A stretch of DNA of 34,427 nucleotides from a virus: positions 1 through 34,427 of the IMG/VR virus record IMGVR_UViG_3300032309_000152, one strand, 5' to 3'. Under the pieces are notes generated by a model. That model was not told the DNA's origin, did not search any database, and was given only the letters and a program-made list of their open reading frames with translations. The translations under genes and the position numbers were made by a program. Shown here piece by piece: positions 19,804 through 22,494 of the stretch. The first letter of the stretch is position 1, and each line of letters opens with the position of its first letter.

Positions 19804-19879
19804 TTTGATTTCCTTAAAAGTACCCTTGCGAATTGCTTGGGCTGATGCAAGTATAGCAAACTAAACACACTATTTACTA
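19804..19879 (-). promoter_or_regulatory. Second copy of the early promoter plus leader
   Basis: On the minus strand the -35 is TAGTAA (19874-19879), the spacer 18 bases, and the -10 TATACT (19850-19855). A 46-base leader to the ATG follows, carrying CAGCCCAA, TTCG, AGGGT and TTTTAAGGA. It aligns without gaps to the plus-strand module at 22419-22494: about 36 of the 49 bases from the -10 through the ATG are identical. GCCC and GGGU in the leader can pair in both copies. Confidence 0.75.
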
Positions 19880-19893
19880 GGTGTTTACACCTA
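19878..19893. promoter_or_regulatory. 16-bp operator-like palindrome
   Basis: TAGGTGTAAACACCTA on the minus strand has perfect 7-base arms and a 2-base centre. It overlaps the -35 of the second early promoter and the stop codon of the 110-residue gene. A degenerate version (TAGGGAAATCACCTA) lies at the same place relative to the first early promoter. Confidence 0.7.
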
Positions 19894-20223
19894 CTCCGTA
19901 GTTTTTACGCCAAGACGCTCACTTGCTTGCTCAGACCGCCATATGTCTGCCTTCATTTGGGCAGCAATCAGCATATATTTCAAAGTCTCCTCACGAATGG
20001 TAGCCTCTTGTAAACCTCTTAATAATTCTTCGTATTCTGGGTGAGCATAAGCCTCACGCTCTTGTGCTATACCAGAATCTATGCCTCTAGCCATAGCATC
20101 TTTCATCAGTAAAGATTTTTTAGTACGCAAGAAATTTTCTATAAAAACTCTTTGAGCCTTCGCCTCGGCAAATTTGCATGAATTTTCAATGATGTACTCT
20201 ATCGCTCGGTAAGGTGCTTTCAC
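19891..20223 (-). CDS. Helical early protein, unknown function
   Basis: This 110-residue protein is nearly all helical: MKAPYRAIEYIIENSCKFAEAKAQRVFIENFLRTKKSLLMKDAMARG, then EREAYAHPEYEELLRGLQEATIREETLKYMLIAAQMKADIWRSEQ. It overlaps the nuclease-like gene by 4 bases (ATGA). Such proteins often accompany VRR-NUC-like genes in temperate and environmental phages. No catalytic or DNA-binding motif is evident. Its stop lies in the operator palindrome of the next transcription unit. Confidence 0.8.
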   Translation of the reverse strand: MKAPYRAIEYIIENSCKFAEAKAQRVFIENFLRTKKSLLMKDAMARGIDSGIAQEREAYAHPEYEELLRGLQEATIREETLKYMLIAAQMKADIWRSEQASERLGVKTTE

Positions 20224-20486
20224 TTGACTACTCCAATCATCCTAAGTGCGGCTTCTGGGCAATCTATTCTTGCCAAGGTACTTCCAGACCAATTTTCAAA
20301 AAAGTCGGCTTGTAGCTTCGTCAAACGCTTTTTAGAGTCTGTTTTAATCTCTACCAGAAATGTGTGACCCTTGTAGCCAACCAGTAGGTCAACTGGTAAG
20401 CCAATAATCCAAACATATGCGCCAGCACCACGCAAGGCAGAAACTATCTGTTCTTGGTTAGCATCAACTCTTGCTGCTCTCCTCAT
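20220..20486 (-). CDS. VRR-NUC/PD-(D/E)XK-like small nuclease
   Basis: The product is 88 residues. The motif set is E12 in the first helix (NQEQIVSALRGAG), PVDLLVGYKG (Asp 33), LVEIKTD (Glu 46 - x - Lys 48) and LTKLQADFFENW (Gln 59). This is the order of VRR-NUC and other stand-alone PD-(D/E)XK nucleases, some of which act as structure-specific or Holliday-junction enzymes. All key residues are present, so it should be active. It overlaps both neighbours and lies in the replication operon. Confidence 0.82.
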   Translation of the reverse strand: MRRAARVDANQEQIVSALRGAGAYVWIIGLPVDLLVGYKGHTFLVEIKTDSKKRLTKLQADFFENWSGSTLARIDCPEAALRMIGVVK

Positions 20487-20679
20487 TTCGTAACCTCGTC
20501 ATTCTGTCCCTCAAAAGCAAAGTATCGGACTTTCCTCTGATTCGTTCCAAGTCCACGCACACACCCTGCCACCAGAGCAAGGCTTTGCTCGAGCCAATCG
20601 TCAATTTCTTTTGGTTGAACCTGCGTATCCACTCTCTCGCTTCTGAGTTCTTGAAGTGCTCTAATTCTGCTGGAGTCAT
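20464..20679 (-). CDS. Small early protein, unknown function
   Basis: The product is 71 residues, MTPAELEHFKNSEAREWIRRFNQKKLTIGSSKALLWWQGVCVDLERIRG, then KSDTLLLRDRMTRLRNEESSKS. It is helical and basic. I chose this frame over the alternative overlapping one (TTG start at 20704) because of its ATG start and better amino-acid balance. The overlap of 23 bases with the nuclease gene suggests coupling. No obvious ribosome binding site precedes it. Confidence 0.62.
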   Translation of the reverse strand: MTPAELEHFKNSEAREWIRRFNQKKLTIGSSKALLWWQGVCVDLERIRGKSDTLLLRDRMTRLRNEESSKS

Positions 20680-20700
20680 TTATAGGCCATTGAAAGTTGT

Positions 20701-21381
20701 TCAAAACATAGCCTCTTGAATTTGTTTAGGTTGTTCATGTGCAAACAATTGTGGTTGTGAAGCAGCTTGCTCTATACGCTTACAGGCAATGTCAAAGTAT
20801 TTTTGTTCACGTTCAATTCCGATAAATTTGCGTCCCATCTGAATTGCAGCTACTCCTGTTGTACCGCTACCCATAAATGGGTCTAAGATAGTTCCAGAAG
20901 TCCATTCAACAAACTTACACATCAAACCCACAGGTTTTTCAGTAGGGTGAAATTCATTGTTTGTTCTTGGATATTCAATTACATCTGTTGGTCTCTGCTT
21001 TGGAAAAAAATGATTTTGCATTGCATAGAAAAAAGCAACTTCAGTTTGTCTAGCGTGTTCATGGTGCAAGTCACCCATTGACCAATTATTTTTTACCCAT
21101 GTAATTAAACTTTTTGGTTTTGGATAGTCATAAATGTTGTCCCATCTACCAAAAGCATAAATTGAATGATTTGTGTTCTCCAAGCACCATTTAATTACCT
21201 CAATTGCAATATCGGCAGATTCATCGTTAGCAATTTTTAAATGTTTTTCATGTCTAAAATTAGATTGAAAACTCATTCCATAAGGAGGGTCAGTAATGAC
21301 AGCATCAACTTTGTCAATCAATGGCAAAACTTCTAAGCAGTCGCCAAGATAAAGCGTAGCATTTCCAATTTCTACTTTCAT
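20701..21381 (-). CDS. DNA methyltransferase, beta class (N6-adenine or N4-cytosine)
   Basis: The product is 226 residues. Motif IV DPPY is at 31-34, the HPTEKP block at 145-150, motif I DPFMGSGTTG at 167-176, and FIGIER (motif II) at 186-191. Catalytic motif before AdoMet motif defines the beta class; DPPY most often goes with adenine-N6. It likely protects phage DNA from host restriction or times replication. No cognate restriction enzyme is seen, so it is an orphan. ATG 21381 has a strong ribosome binding site (AAGGAG) and overlaps the upstream gene by 4 bases. Confidence 0.92.
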   Translation of the reverse strand: MKVEIGNATLYLGDCLEVLPLIDKVDAVITDPPYGMSFQSNFRHEKHLKIANDESADIAIEVIKWCLENTNHSIYAFGRWDNIYDYPKPKSLITWVKNNWSMGDLHHEHARQTEVAFFYAMQNHFFPKQRPTDVIEYPRTNNEFHPTEKPVGLMCKFVEWTSGTILDPFMGSGTTGVAAIQMGRKFIGIEREQKYFDIACKRIEQAASQPQLFAHEQPKQIQEAMF

Positions 21382-22103
21382 GCTTTTCTCCTTAACTCAG
21401 CCATCTTTGCTAAAACTTCTAGGGGTATAGGTGCAGCTTTCAAAGCGTCTGCTTTAATCTTTTCTAACGCAGGGTCAGGCTCATTTTTGCTCGGAACTGT
21501 GAGCCTCACAATGTCGGCAGGGTTTTGCTTTGGTGCATTAGTACTTCTAACCCAATTACGCCAAGTTGCAAACCAATCCAACTTCACACTTTTCTGACCT
21601 GCTTGGGCTATCCAATAATCCTTAAACTGGTCAAAGGTTTTAACAGGGCTAAGTTCTGGTCTTGTCTGTTGGCAGAACTGTTCCCATTCCAATGGAAAAC
21701 TAAAATCAGAAGCGAGGCGTTTGCCGAGTGTCTTCTTCTCTTTCTTTGTCTCTGTCTCTGTCTCTCTCTCTCTCTCTGTCTCTGGGATAGCAGTCTGCAA
21801 GCGTTCTGCTAGCACTCCGCTAACAACAGTAAAAAAGTTGTTATCAATCAATGGCTTAACACCAGCTTGGTACTCTTTCTCAGTAATGTGCAGACGAAAG
21901 ACTAGCTCATCTAGTGAGCCATCAAAAACACCATCTTTTGATTCACTTGCAAGCAACCAGAGCATAGGTGCTATCGCCTTGCTAGCAATAGGCAAGCGCA
22001 TATAAACCCTGTCGTTTAACAGGTCACGATGAAGTTTTATCCAAGGCGGGCATCTGTCTTTGTAATGTTGAAAGACGGCCCAGTTTTTTGGCTGTAAAAG
22101 CAT
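21378..22103 (-). CDS. Replication initiator-like protein (lambda O / DnaD-like layout)
   Basis: The product is 241 residues, start MLLQPKNWAVFQHYKDRCPPWIKLHRDLLND. ATG 22103 has GAGGATATT in front; an upstream start lacks this. Residues 20-105 look like a winged helix (PIASKAIAPMLWLLASES, VFDGSLDELVFRLHITEKEYQAGVKPLIDNNFFTVV), as in phage replication proteins. Residues 108-124 are a Glu/Arg/Thr repeat. The C-terminal part (PLEWEQFCQQTRP, WFATWRNWVRS) resembles the end of phage replisome-organiser or helicase-loader proteins. It should open the origin and recruit host replication enzymes, since the phage has no polymerase. Confidence 0.75.
   Translation of the reverse strand: MLLQPKNWAVFQHYKDRCPPWIKLHRDLLNDRVYMRLPIASKAIAPMLWLLASESKDGVFDGSLDELVFRLHITEKEYQAGVKPLIDNNFFTVVSGVLAERLQTAIPETERERETETETKKEKKTLGKRLASDFSFPLEWEQFCQQTRPELSPVKTFDQFKDYWIAQAGQKSVKLDWFATWRNWVRSTNAPKQNPADIVRLTVPSKNEPDPALEKIKADALKAAPIPLEVLAKMAELRRKA
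21745..21784. repeat. CT/CTGTCT microsatellite inside the replication gene
   Basis: The plus strand reads TCTCTGTCTCTG then a pure CT run, then CTGTCTCTG. It encodes the RERETETET linker. Repeats in the same relative place of lambda O form the origin, but this tract is purine-pyrimidine biased and may instead be slippage-prone. Confidence 0.8.
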
Positions 22104-22216: not shown

Positions 22217-22369
22217 TTATTTAAACCACTCTGGTCTAAGTTCTTTAAGTTGATAAATACGCAACTCAGGGATTTTCTTCCATAGAAAGACAGCAGCCCT
22301 AGTTATACCAAGAATTCTAGCAAGCTCACTCTGTGAGCCAGCAAGTGTAATAGCAGTTTGTTTATCCAT
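22217..22369 (-). CDS. Cro-like HTH repressor
   Basis: The product is 50 residues, MDKQTAITLAGSQSELARILGITRAAVFLWKK, then IPELRIYQLKELRPEWFK. The helix-turn-helix GSQSELARILGITRAAVFLW (residues about 11-30) and the L.EL.P.W end are those of Cro/YdaS-type regulators. I chose ATG 22369 because the longer frame reads through the promoter region. Only six bases separate the -10 box TATACT from this ATG, so the mRNA may be leaderless. It is divergent from the recombination operon and is the obvious protein to bind the dyads at 22406-22437 and 19878-19893. No CI-like partner or integrase is present. Confidence 0.82.
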   Translation of the reverse strand: MDKQTAITLAGSQSELARILGITRAAVFLWKKIPELRIYQLKELRPEWFK

Positions 22370-22375
22370 ATCCTG

Positions 22376-22381
22376 AGTATA
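22376..22381 (-). promoter_or_regulatory. -10 box of the Cro-like gene promoter
   Basis: TATACT on the minus strand, preceded by TGTTTATTAAGC, resembles the TGTTTAGTTTGC before the other two -10 boxes. The expected transcription start falls on or next to the ATG at 22369. No good -35 is visible. Confidence 0.5.
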
Positions 22382-22389
22382 GCTTAATA

Positions 22390-22437
22390 AACAATTTGTT
22401 GATGTTAGGGAAATCACCTAGACAAATACCTGTTTAG
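22390..22437. promoter_or_regulatory. Operator cluster between divergent early promoters
   Basis: Three dyads are visible: AACAA-T-TTGTT (22390-22400); TAGGGAAATCACCTA (22406-22420), an imperfect copy of the perfect palindrome at 19878-19893; and CTAgACAaataccTGTtTAG (22418-22437) overlapping the -35 and spacer of the rightward promoter. The arrangement is that of a phage genetic switch. Confidence 0.55.
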
Positions 22438-22448
22438 TTTGATATACT
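22419..22448 (+). promoter_or_regulatory. Rightward early sigma70 promoter
   Basis: -35 TAGACA (22419-22424; 5 of 6), spacer 18, -10 TATACT (22443-22448; 5 of 6). A 46-base leader with GCCC/GGGU pairing ends in AAGGAG before ATG 22495. The whole block is repeated on the minus strand at 19804-19879. Confidence 0.82.
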
Positions 22449-22494
22449 GTCGTCAGCCCAAACAAATCGTGAGGGTCTTTTTAAGGAGTTTCAA

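Follow-up and report, generated by a model that had tools for sequence, protein, structure and literature searches.

A covariation-supported 5′ leader RNA at the head of both early operons in an environmental tailed phage

The IMG/VR virus record IMGVR_UViG_3300032309_000152, taken here whole as the window, comprises 34,427 bases. Judged by its predicted gene content (a terminase, an Erf-type annealing protein, a P22_Cro-like repressor and a DNA methyltransferase), it represents a tailed phage. By terminase it stands closest, among named phages, to a Manatee Spring podovirus (63% identity) and to Methylophilales phage Venkman (62%), with Pelagibacter phages following at about 44–48%. Two early operons run in opposite directions, leftward (L) and rightward (R), and each opens with a block made up of a promoter/operator region, a short non-coding leader and the start codon of a small gene (Table 1). 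The leader, which carries a hairpin of 19–22 nucleotides followed by a Shine-Dalgarno sequence, is the subject of this analysis.

A preliminary description, made from the sequence of the window, had proposed that promoter and leader are common to the two opposite operons. Both are indeed present in each, with block limits about 10 bases away from those first given (corrected in Table 1). The right and left blocks align without gaps and are identical at 62 of 83 positions, with 26 of 34 identical in the promoter/operator portion and 36 of 49 from the -10 to the ATG. A BLAST search of the record with the right block matched no place other than the two blocks (E 5.5e-13 for the left one); with such a value, and only two places in the record, the similarity is not due to chance. 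A covariance model (R1) built from leader variants matches the R leader at 22452-22487 (+, E 7.2e-12) and the L leader at 19846-19811 (-, E 3.8e-13).

Table 1. Positions of the two blocks and of associated features in the window
Feature	Position	Strand	Basis or remark
Right block, CACCTAG to end of ATG	22415-22497	+	
R promoter/operator region: CACCTAG, TGTTTAGTTTG, -10 TATACT (22443-22448)	22415-22448	+	TAGACA-18-TATACT, TG before -10
R leader hairpin GCCC-AA-AC-AAATC-GT-GA-GGGU	22456-22476	+	minimum-energy fold, covariation, covariance model
R Shine-Dalgarno AAGGA	22483-22487	+	sequence; fixed geometry across 224 leaders; ATG starts at 22495
First R-operon gene, membrane-like peptide of 29 amino acids (TM29)	22495-22584	+	
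Second R-operon gene, basic protein of 51 amino acids (p50)	22584-22736	+	two sequence types; candidate RNA-binding protein
Left block, CACCTAG to end of ATG	19883-19801	-	
L promoter/operator region: CACCTAG, TGTTTAGTTTG, -10 TATACT	19850-19883	-	
L leader hairpin GCCC-AA-GC-AAUUC-GC-AA-GGGU	19822-19842	-	minimum-energy fold, covariance model
L Shine-Dalgarno AAGGA	19811-19815	-	sequence; ATG at 19803-19801
First L-operon gene, 57 amino acids	19630-19803	-	family also behind R leaders in relatives (7 members: 5 L, 2 R)
Intercistronic hairpin GGGGGCATAGCCCCC	19608-19622	-	6 nucleotides before AAGGA (19601-19597) of the displaced p85 gene (19589-19332)
Intrinsic terminator AGAGGGGCTTGTCCCCTCTTTTTTT closing the L early operon	18386-18411	-	window position; found in many relatives
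Candidate late promoter overlapping the L terminator, TTGTCC-17-GATAAT with TG	18375-18403	-	consensus match only
Cro-like repressor (P22_Cro)	22217-22366	-	PF14549, E 1.1e-9

Minimum-energy folding of four leader variants gives one hairpin, composed of an outer stem, an A-rich internal loop, two inner pairs and a five-base loop. The pairing of GCCC with GGGU proposed earlier is right and incomplete, the inner two-pair stem, the loop of five nucleotides and the A-rich internal loop having to be added to it. The arms of the hairpin covary. In an alignment of 27 sequences 99.4% of the cells pair, against 18–40% in a control in which one arm was slid, and both inner pairs vary on both sides. In the 156 hairpins of 19 nucleotides that were counted, G-C, A-U or G-U forms the first inner pair and C-G or A-U the second, and every inner pair is intact. 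The outer stems of the longer R variants covary likewise (CCCGC/GCGGG, CCCAC/GTGGG, CCCAT/GTGGG), and the hairpin may grow by three bases and still fold. Wobble pairs, together with changes of stem length in which pairing is kept, indicate an RNA structure rather than a DNA dyad. These counts are of sequences, not of independent events, and take no account of kinship; the changes that look separate are inner G-C to A-U (L and R), inner C-G to A-U (L) and outer A-U to G-C (R). An apical motif consisting of A, R-C (or G-A), the loop ANNNY, G-Y and AA or GA is kept in nearly every variant. Compensatory and G-U changes in the arms, and the retention of the leader as promoters change, bear out the suggestion that conservation reaches past the promoter and that the leader has a role at the RNA level. 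On the evidence of covariation, the leader is a real structured 5′ leader RNA. Rfam gave no match at the gathering score across the whole window, even at E up to 5 no family overlapped either leader, and literature searches found no description of it.

The leader occurs widely among relatives. An exact pattern for the leader alone matched at least 119 IMG/VR stretches, and a pattern for promoter plus leader matched 82. To avoid selection by the leader itself, 80 loci were chosen by their Erf protein and searched with the covariance model. A copy facing Erf (R) was found in 59 of these; of the remaining 21, 7 have less than about 270 bases of sequence on the upstream side of Erf. The other 14 form a sister group, represented also by 5 near-complete records, in which the model detects no leader. 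Among near-complete records the leader is present in 31 of 36, the other 5 being the sister group, and 28 of the 31 carry two copies on opposite strands. These 28 comprise 27 records with exactly two copies and one (G005) with two plus a marginal third match (E 0.05). Record G002 has three copies, two of them near opposite record ends (probably one copy repeated at the ends), and G008 and G031 have one each. In the leader-bearing group there was no case of a lost leader with a retained promoter. Among named relatives, the model match did not rise above noise in Venkman, HTVC010P, Rhodoferax phage P26218, two Manatee Spring phages and the PinkBerry phage. One pattern match in a bacterial genome, a Pelotomaculum metagenome-assembled genome (L139), has neither promoter nor start codon in place (E 0.02) and was dismissed as chance. 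The SAS/ESAS elements of cluster K mycobacteriophages are likewise conserved non-coding blocks with inverted repeats before the start codons of varied non-structural genes. However, SAS is a 13-bp sequence (GGGATAGGAGCCC) with 11–19 copies per genome (PMC3203893), whereas the leader has an unrelated sequence and, in the window and most related records, two copies, one per operon, at the promoter.

Within these blocks the leader behaves as a unit independent of what lies on either side. In 224 distinct leaders the CCC starts 8 (199) or 9 (25) nucleotides after the -10, GGGY is separated from AAGGA by 6 (184) or 4 (40) nucleotides, and AAGGA from the start codon by 5–9 nucleotides (7 in 180). 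If +1 lies at its usual distance, the hairpin is predicted to form the 5′ end of the mRNA, with about one unpaired base before the stem. Upstream, the promoters fall into 11 (L) and 12 (R) clusters at 70% identity. Downstream, the slots behind the leaders (19803, - and 22495, + in the window) hold small genes of 22 families, 7 of which stand behind both L and R leaders, some having been swapped between the opposite operons. In 66 relatives with both copies, the L and R promoters share a mean identity of 51% within a genome and 49% between genomes, and reach at least 70% in only 5%; loci with an identical Cro-like protein differ in their L promoter. Because L and R promoters show no greater likeness within a genome than between genomes, the promoter/operator match in the window is incidental and unusual, and the leader match is the rule. 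The earlier proposal of a shared promoter and operator serving shared repression is therefore not supported, and a shared operator as the cause of the conservation is rejected in general. The P22_Cro-like repressor would be a candidate for binding the operators, not the leader. Operator-like inverted repeats of several types (TCAACA-NNN-TGTTGA and TAAACA-NNN-TGTTTA) occur at the early promoters of relatives, for example in loci L098, L047, L026 and L086, and are not tied to the Cro sequence type. The hairpins also differ between the two sides: L copies are nearly all of one type, R copies comprise 24 types, and the same hairpin stands at L and R in 1 of 66 fragments.

The leader stayed in place through exchanges of the neighbouring promoters and genes, and so its target of control is very probably the mRNA, with stability or translation the likeliest level. 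The reading favoured here, which is moderately probable, is that it serves as a portable 5′-terminal hairpin and ribosome-binding site that stabilises the early mRNA, boosts its translation, or both. Both early transcripts would begin with the hairpin, followed by a spacer of 4 or 6 nucleotides, a strong AAGGA Shine-Dalgarno sequence and the start codon. The hairpin would shield the 5′ end from 5′-end-dependent decay of the RppH/RNase E type and give the adjoining ribosome site a self-contained neighbourhood, so that any small early gene placed behind it could be strongly expressed at once. As a side effect, the shared leader may offer homology for the exchange of first-gene cassettes between the two operons and between phages. 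This reading is preferred because of the predicted +1 position, the adjacency to the Shine-Dalgarno sequence, the indifference to promoter and gene, and the occurrence of unrelated hairpins at similar spacing.

The last point comes from genes that have lost the first position. TM29 and p85 are often first in their operon and are displaced when a cassette stands ahead of them; the displaced genes often carry hairpins unrelated to the leader, 2–8 (mostly 4–6) nucleotides before the Shine-Dalgarno sequence. In the window, the hairpin preceding p85 (GGGGGCATAGCCCCC) is unrelated in sequence to the leader hairpin and has the same spacing to AAGGA. TM29 follows a leader in 48 cases, another hairpin in 21 and neither in 9, mostly having a hairpin when displaced; for p85 the figures are 82, 17 and 21, with a hairpin in about half of the displaced copies. 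Among 710 other AAGGA genes a hairpin ends 6–7 nucleotides upstream in 25, compared with none at those gaps in shuffled sequences. This suggests that the place and fold of the hairpin matter more than its exact bases. Recurrent intercistronic hairpins, of the GGGGGCTTAGTCCCC type and of the GCCAC...GTGGC type, were also observed 4–7 nucleotides before the AAGGA of several different genes (window 19622-19608, - and, for example, L252:5567, L038:1965 and L261:6687).

Stem-loops at the 5′ terminus that stabilise mRNA are a known kind of element (Emory 1992; Bouvet & Belasco 1992; Bricker & Belasco 1999, as cited in PMC3997798). Like those of ompA and papA, the leader hairpin lies at the predicted 5′ end or a few bases from it, directly ahead of the Shine-Dalgarno sequence, and is suited to blocking 5′-end-dependent decay; the CCC start noted above, at 8–9 nucleotides from the -10 in all 224 leaders, agrees with this position, +1 being placed by the usual spacing. 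Unlike them, the leader is one conserved, covarying RNA family, found in two operons per phage and in many phages regardless of promoter and gene. Several points weigh against a stabilising or translational leader. The start site and any effect on mRNA stability or on translation are inferred. A mere stabiliser would not need such strict conservation of the apical part (A-RC-ANNNY-GY-AA) and of the outer CCC/GGG, a feature that would fit a binding partner. Predicted accessibility of the Shine-Dalgarno sequence barely shifts (0.67 native, 0.61 with the hairpin shuffled, 0.68 with it deleted), and opening of that site by the hairpin was set aside on this weak signal. Finally, a hairpin is absent altogether from some displaced genes, and the hairpins of the others may derive in part from shared descent.

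The binding partner just mentioned leads to the foremost alternative, which is fairly unlikely: a trans factor, whether an RNA-binding protein of phage or host origin or a small RNA, would recognise the leader and time or repress translation in both early operons. The retained apical motif and the abutment of hairpin and Shine-Dalgarno sequence would suit such a site, as would the basic p50 gene directly behind the first R gene, which was detected in 33 of 37 leader-bearing loci and in none of 11 leader-lacking ones at the same threshold. However, Cro, TM29 (31 of 37 against 0 of 11) and p56 co-occur with the leader in the same way, and a divergent p50 is encoded in the leader-lacking locus L281. 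As a possible N-like protein p50 has no PHROG match, and its structure model, two helices of low confidence (predicted local distance difference test score, pLDDT, 68), is too weak to say whether it binds RNA. A small RNA encoded nearby, the int-alpA-like RNA described below, shows no excess pairing with leaders of the same genomes (mean z -0.03), and the unrelated hairpins at the same spacing also speak against a specific site. In a more far-reaching reading, likewise fairly unlikely, the leader would join nut and put as a third kind of RNA element in phages: bound at the 5′ end of both early operons by RNA polymerase or by a protein of phage or host, this one small shape would switch on both halves of the early programme behind any promoter and ahead of any first gene.

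Antitermination, considered in the preliminary description, is possible and disfavoured; a put- or nut-type cis element at both early promoters, by which polymerase would read through terminators, is rather improbable. Like lambda nut, the leader is an RNA hairpin common to both early operons. The boxB loop of nut is GNRA-like, whereas that of the leader is ANNNY. No boxA (CGCTCTTTA) close to consensus is present in the 224 leaders, where the best match has 4 mismatches in 178 and 2 in 13, and variants such as GGGCCATAAAGGA have none. The placement resembles that of HK022 putL and putR, two related structured RNAs, one per opposite early operon: in 28 of 31 leader-bearing records one leader directly follows each early promoter, and the genome has none elsewhere. 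However, a put site has two stem-loops in about 70 nucleotides, is not tied to a ribosome site and, in the case of putR, lies about 270 nucleotides downstream (PMC9378689), whereas the leader is a single hairpin tied to the predicted +1 and the Shine-Dalgarno sequence, within about 46 nucleotides between -10 and start codon. In favour of antitermination, the L operon ends, in many relatives, at an intrinsic terminator just ahead of the late genes, but in nearly all of the 28 distinct sequences listed this terminator is followed by a -10-like AGATAAT or AGAAAAT, and a promoter there would make read-through needless. As a further point against, no intrinsic terminator was found over 3.5 kb of the R operon in 67 loci.

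The idea that the leader is only a recombination anchor, a short homology block for early cassette swaps without a function in expression, draws on the exchange of promoters ahead of it and of first genes behind it, as at lambdoid phage boundary sequences, and on the phage's own Erf-type annealing protein, but it is very improbable because homology would keep sequence and not pairing, whereas the changes in the leader are paired, G-U wobbles included, and its hairpin can lengthen by three bases and still fold. As little credence is given to a recent duplication of promoter, operator and leader kept only for common Cro-like repression: the promoter/operator match in the window and the P22_Cro-like gene adjoining the R promoter favour it, but the general divergence of L and R promoters and the different hairpin types contradict it as a general explanation, so that the "duplicated" module of the preliminary description holds as old paralogy and is rejected as a recent copy. 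Common repression may still hold in this single phage.

The leader belongs to the known kind of structured 5′ leaders and may have a wider role. It constitutes a covariation-supported RNA family absent from Rfam and present in at least 100 environmental phage contigs. Its distribution splits phage regulation into units, an exchangeable promoter/operator and a retained RNA leader, and it marks slots where small early genes of unknown function move between operons; one covariance model now suffices to locate them. It also provides a compact, ready-made expression leader for testing.

Between cro and rep lies an RNA resembling int-alpA (Rfam RF02996; window 22125-22201, -; also G012:C1:7195-7271). 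At a threshold of E 0.01 it is present in 32 of 37 records, with 4 scoring above the curated gathering cut-off, and in none of 14 control genomes. In the window the complementarity between its hairpin loop and 3′ tail is weak (4 pairs). In nearly all of the 32 distinct copies the loop is complementary to the tail, with covarying sequences (TCTCCC/GGGAGA, CCCTTT/AAAGGG, CCACTT/AAGTGG, ACCCCC/GGGGGT), which points to a likely pseudoknot close to the start of rep.

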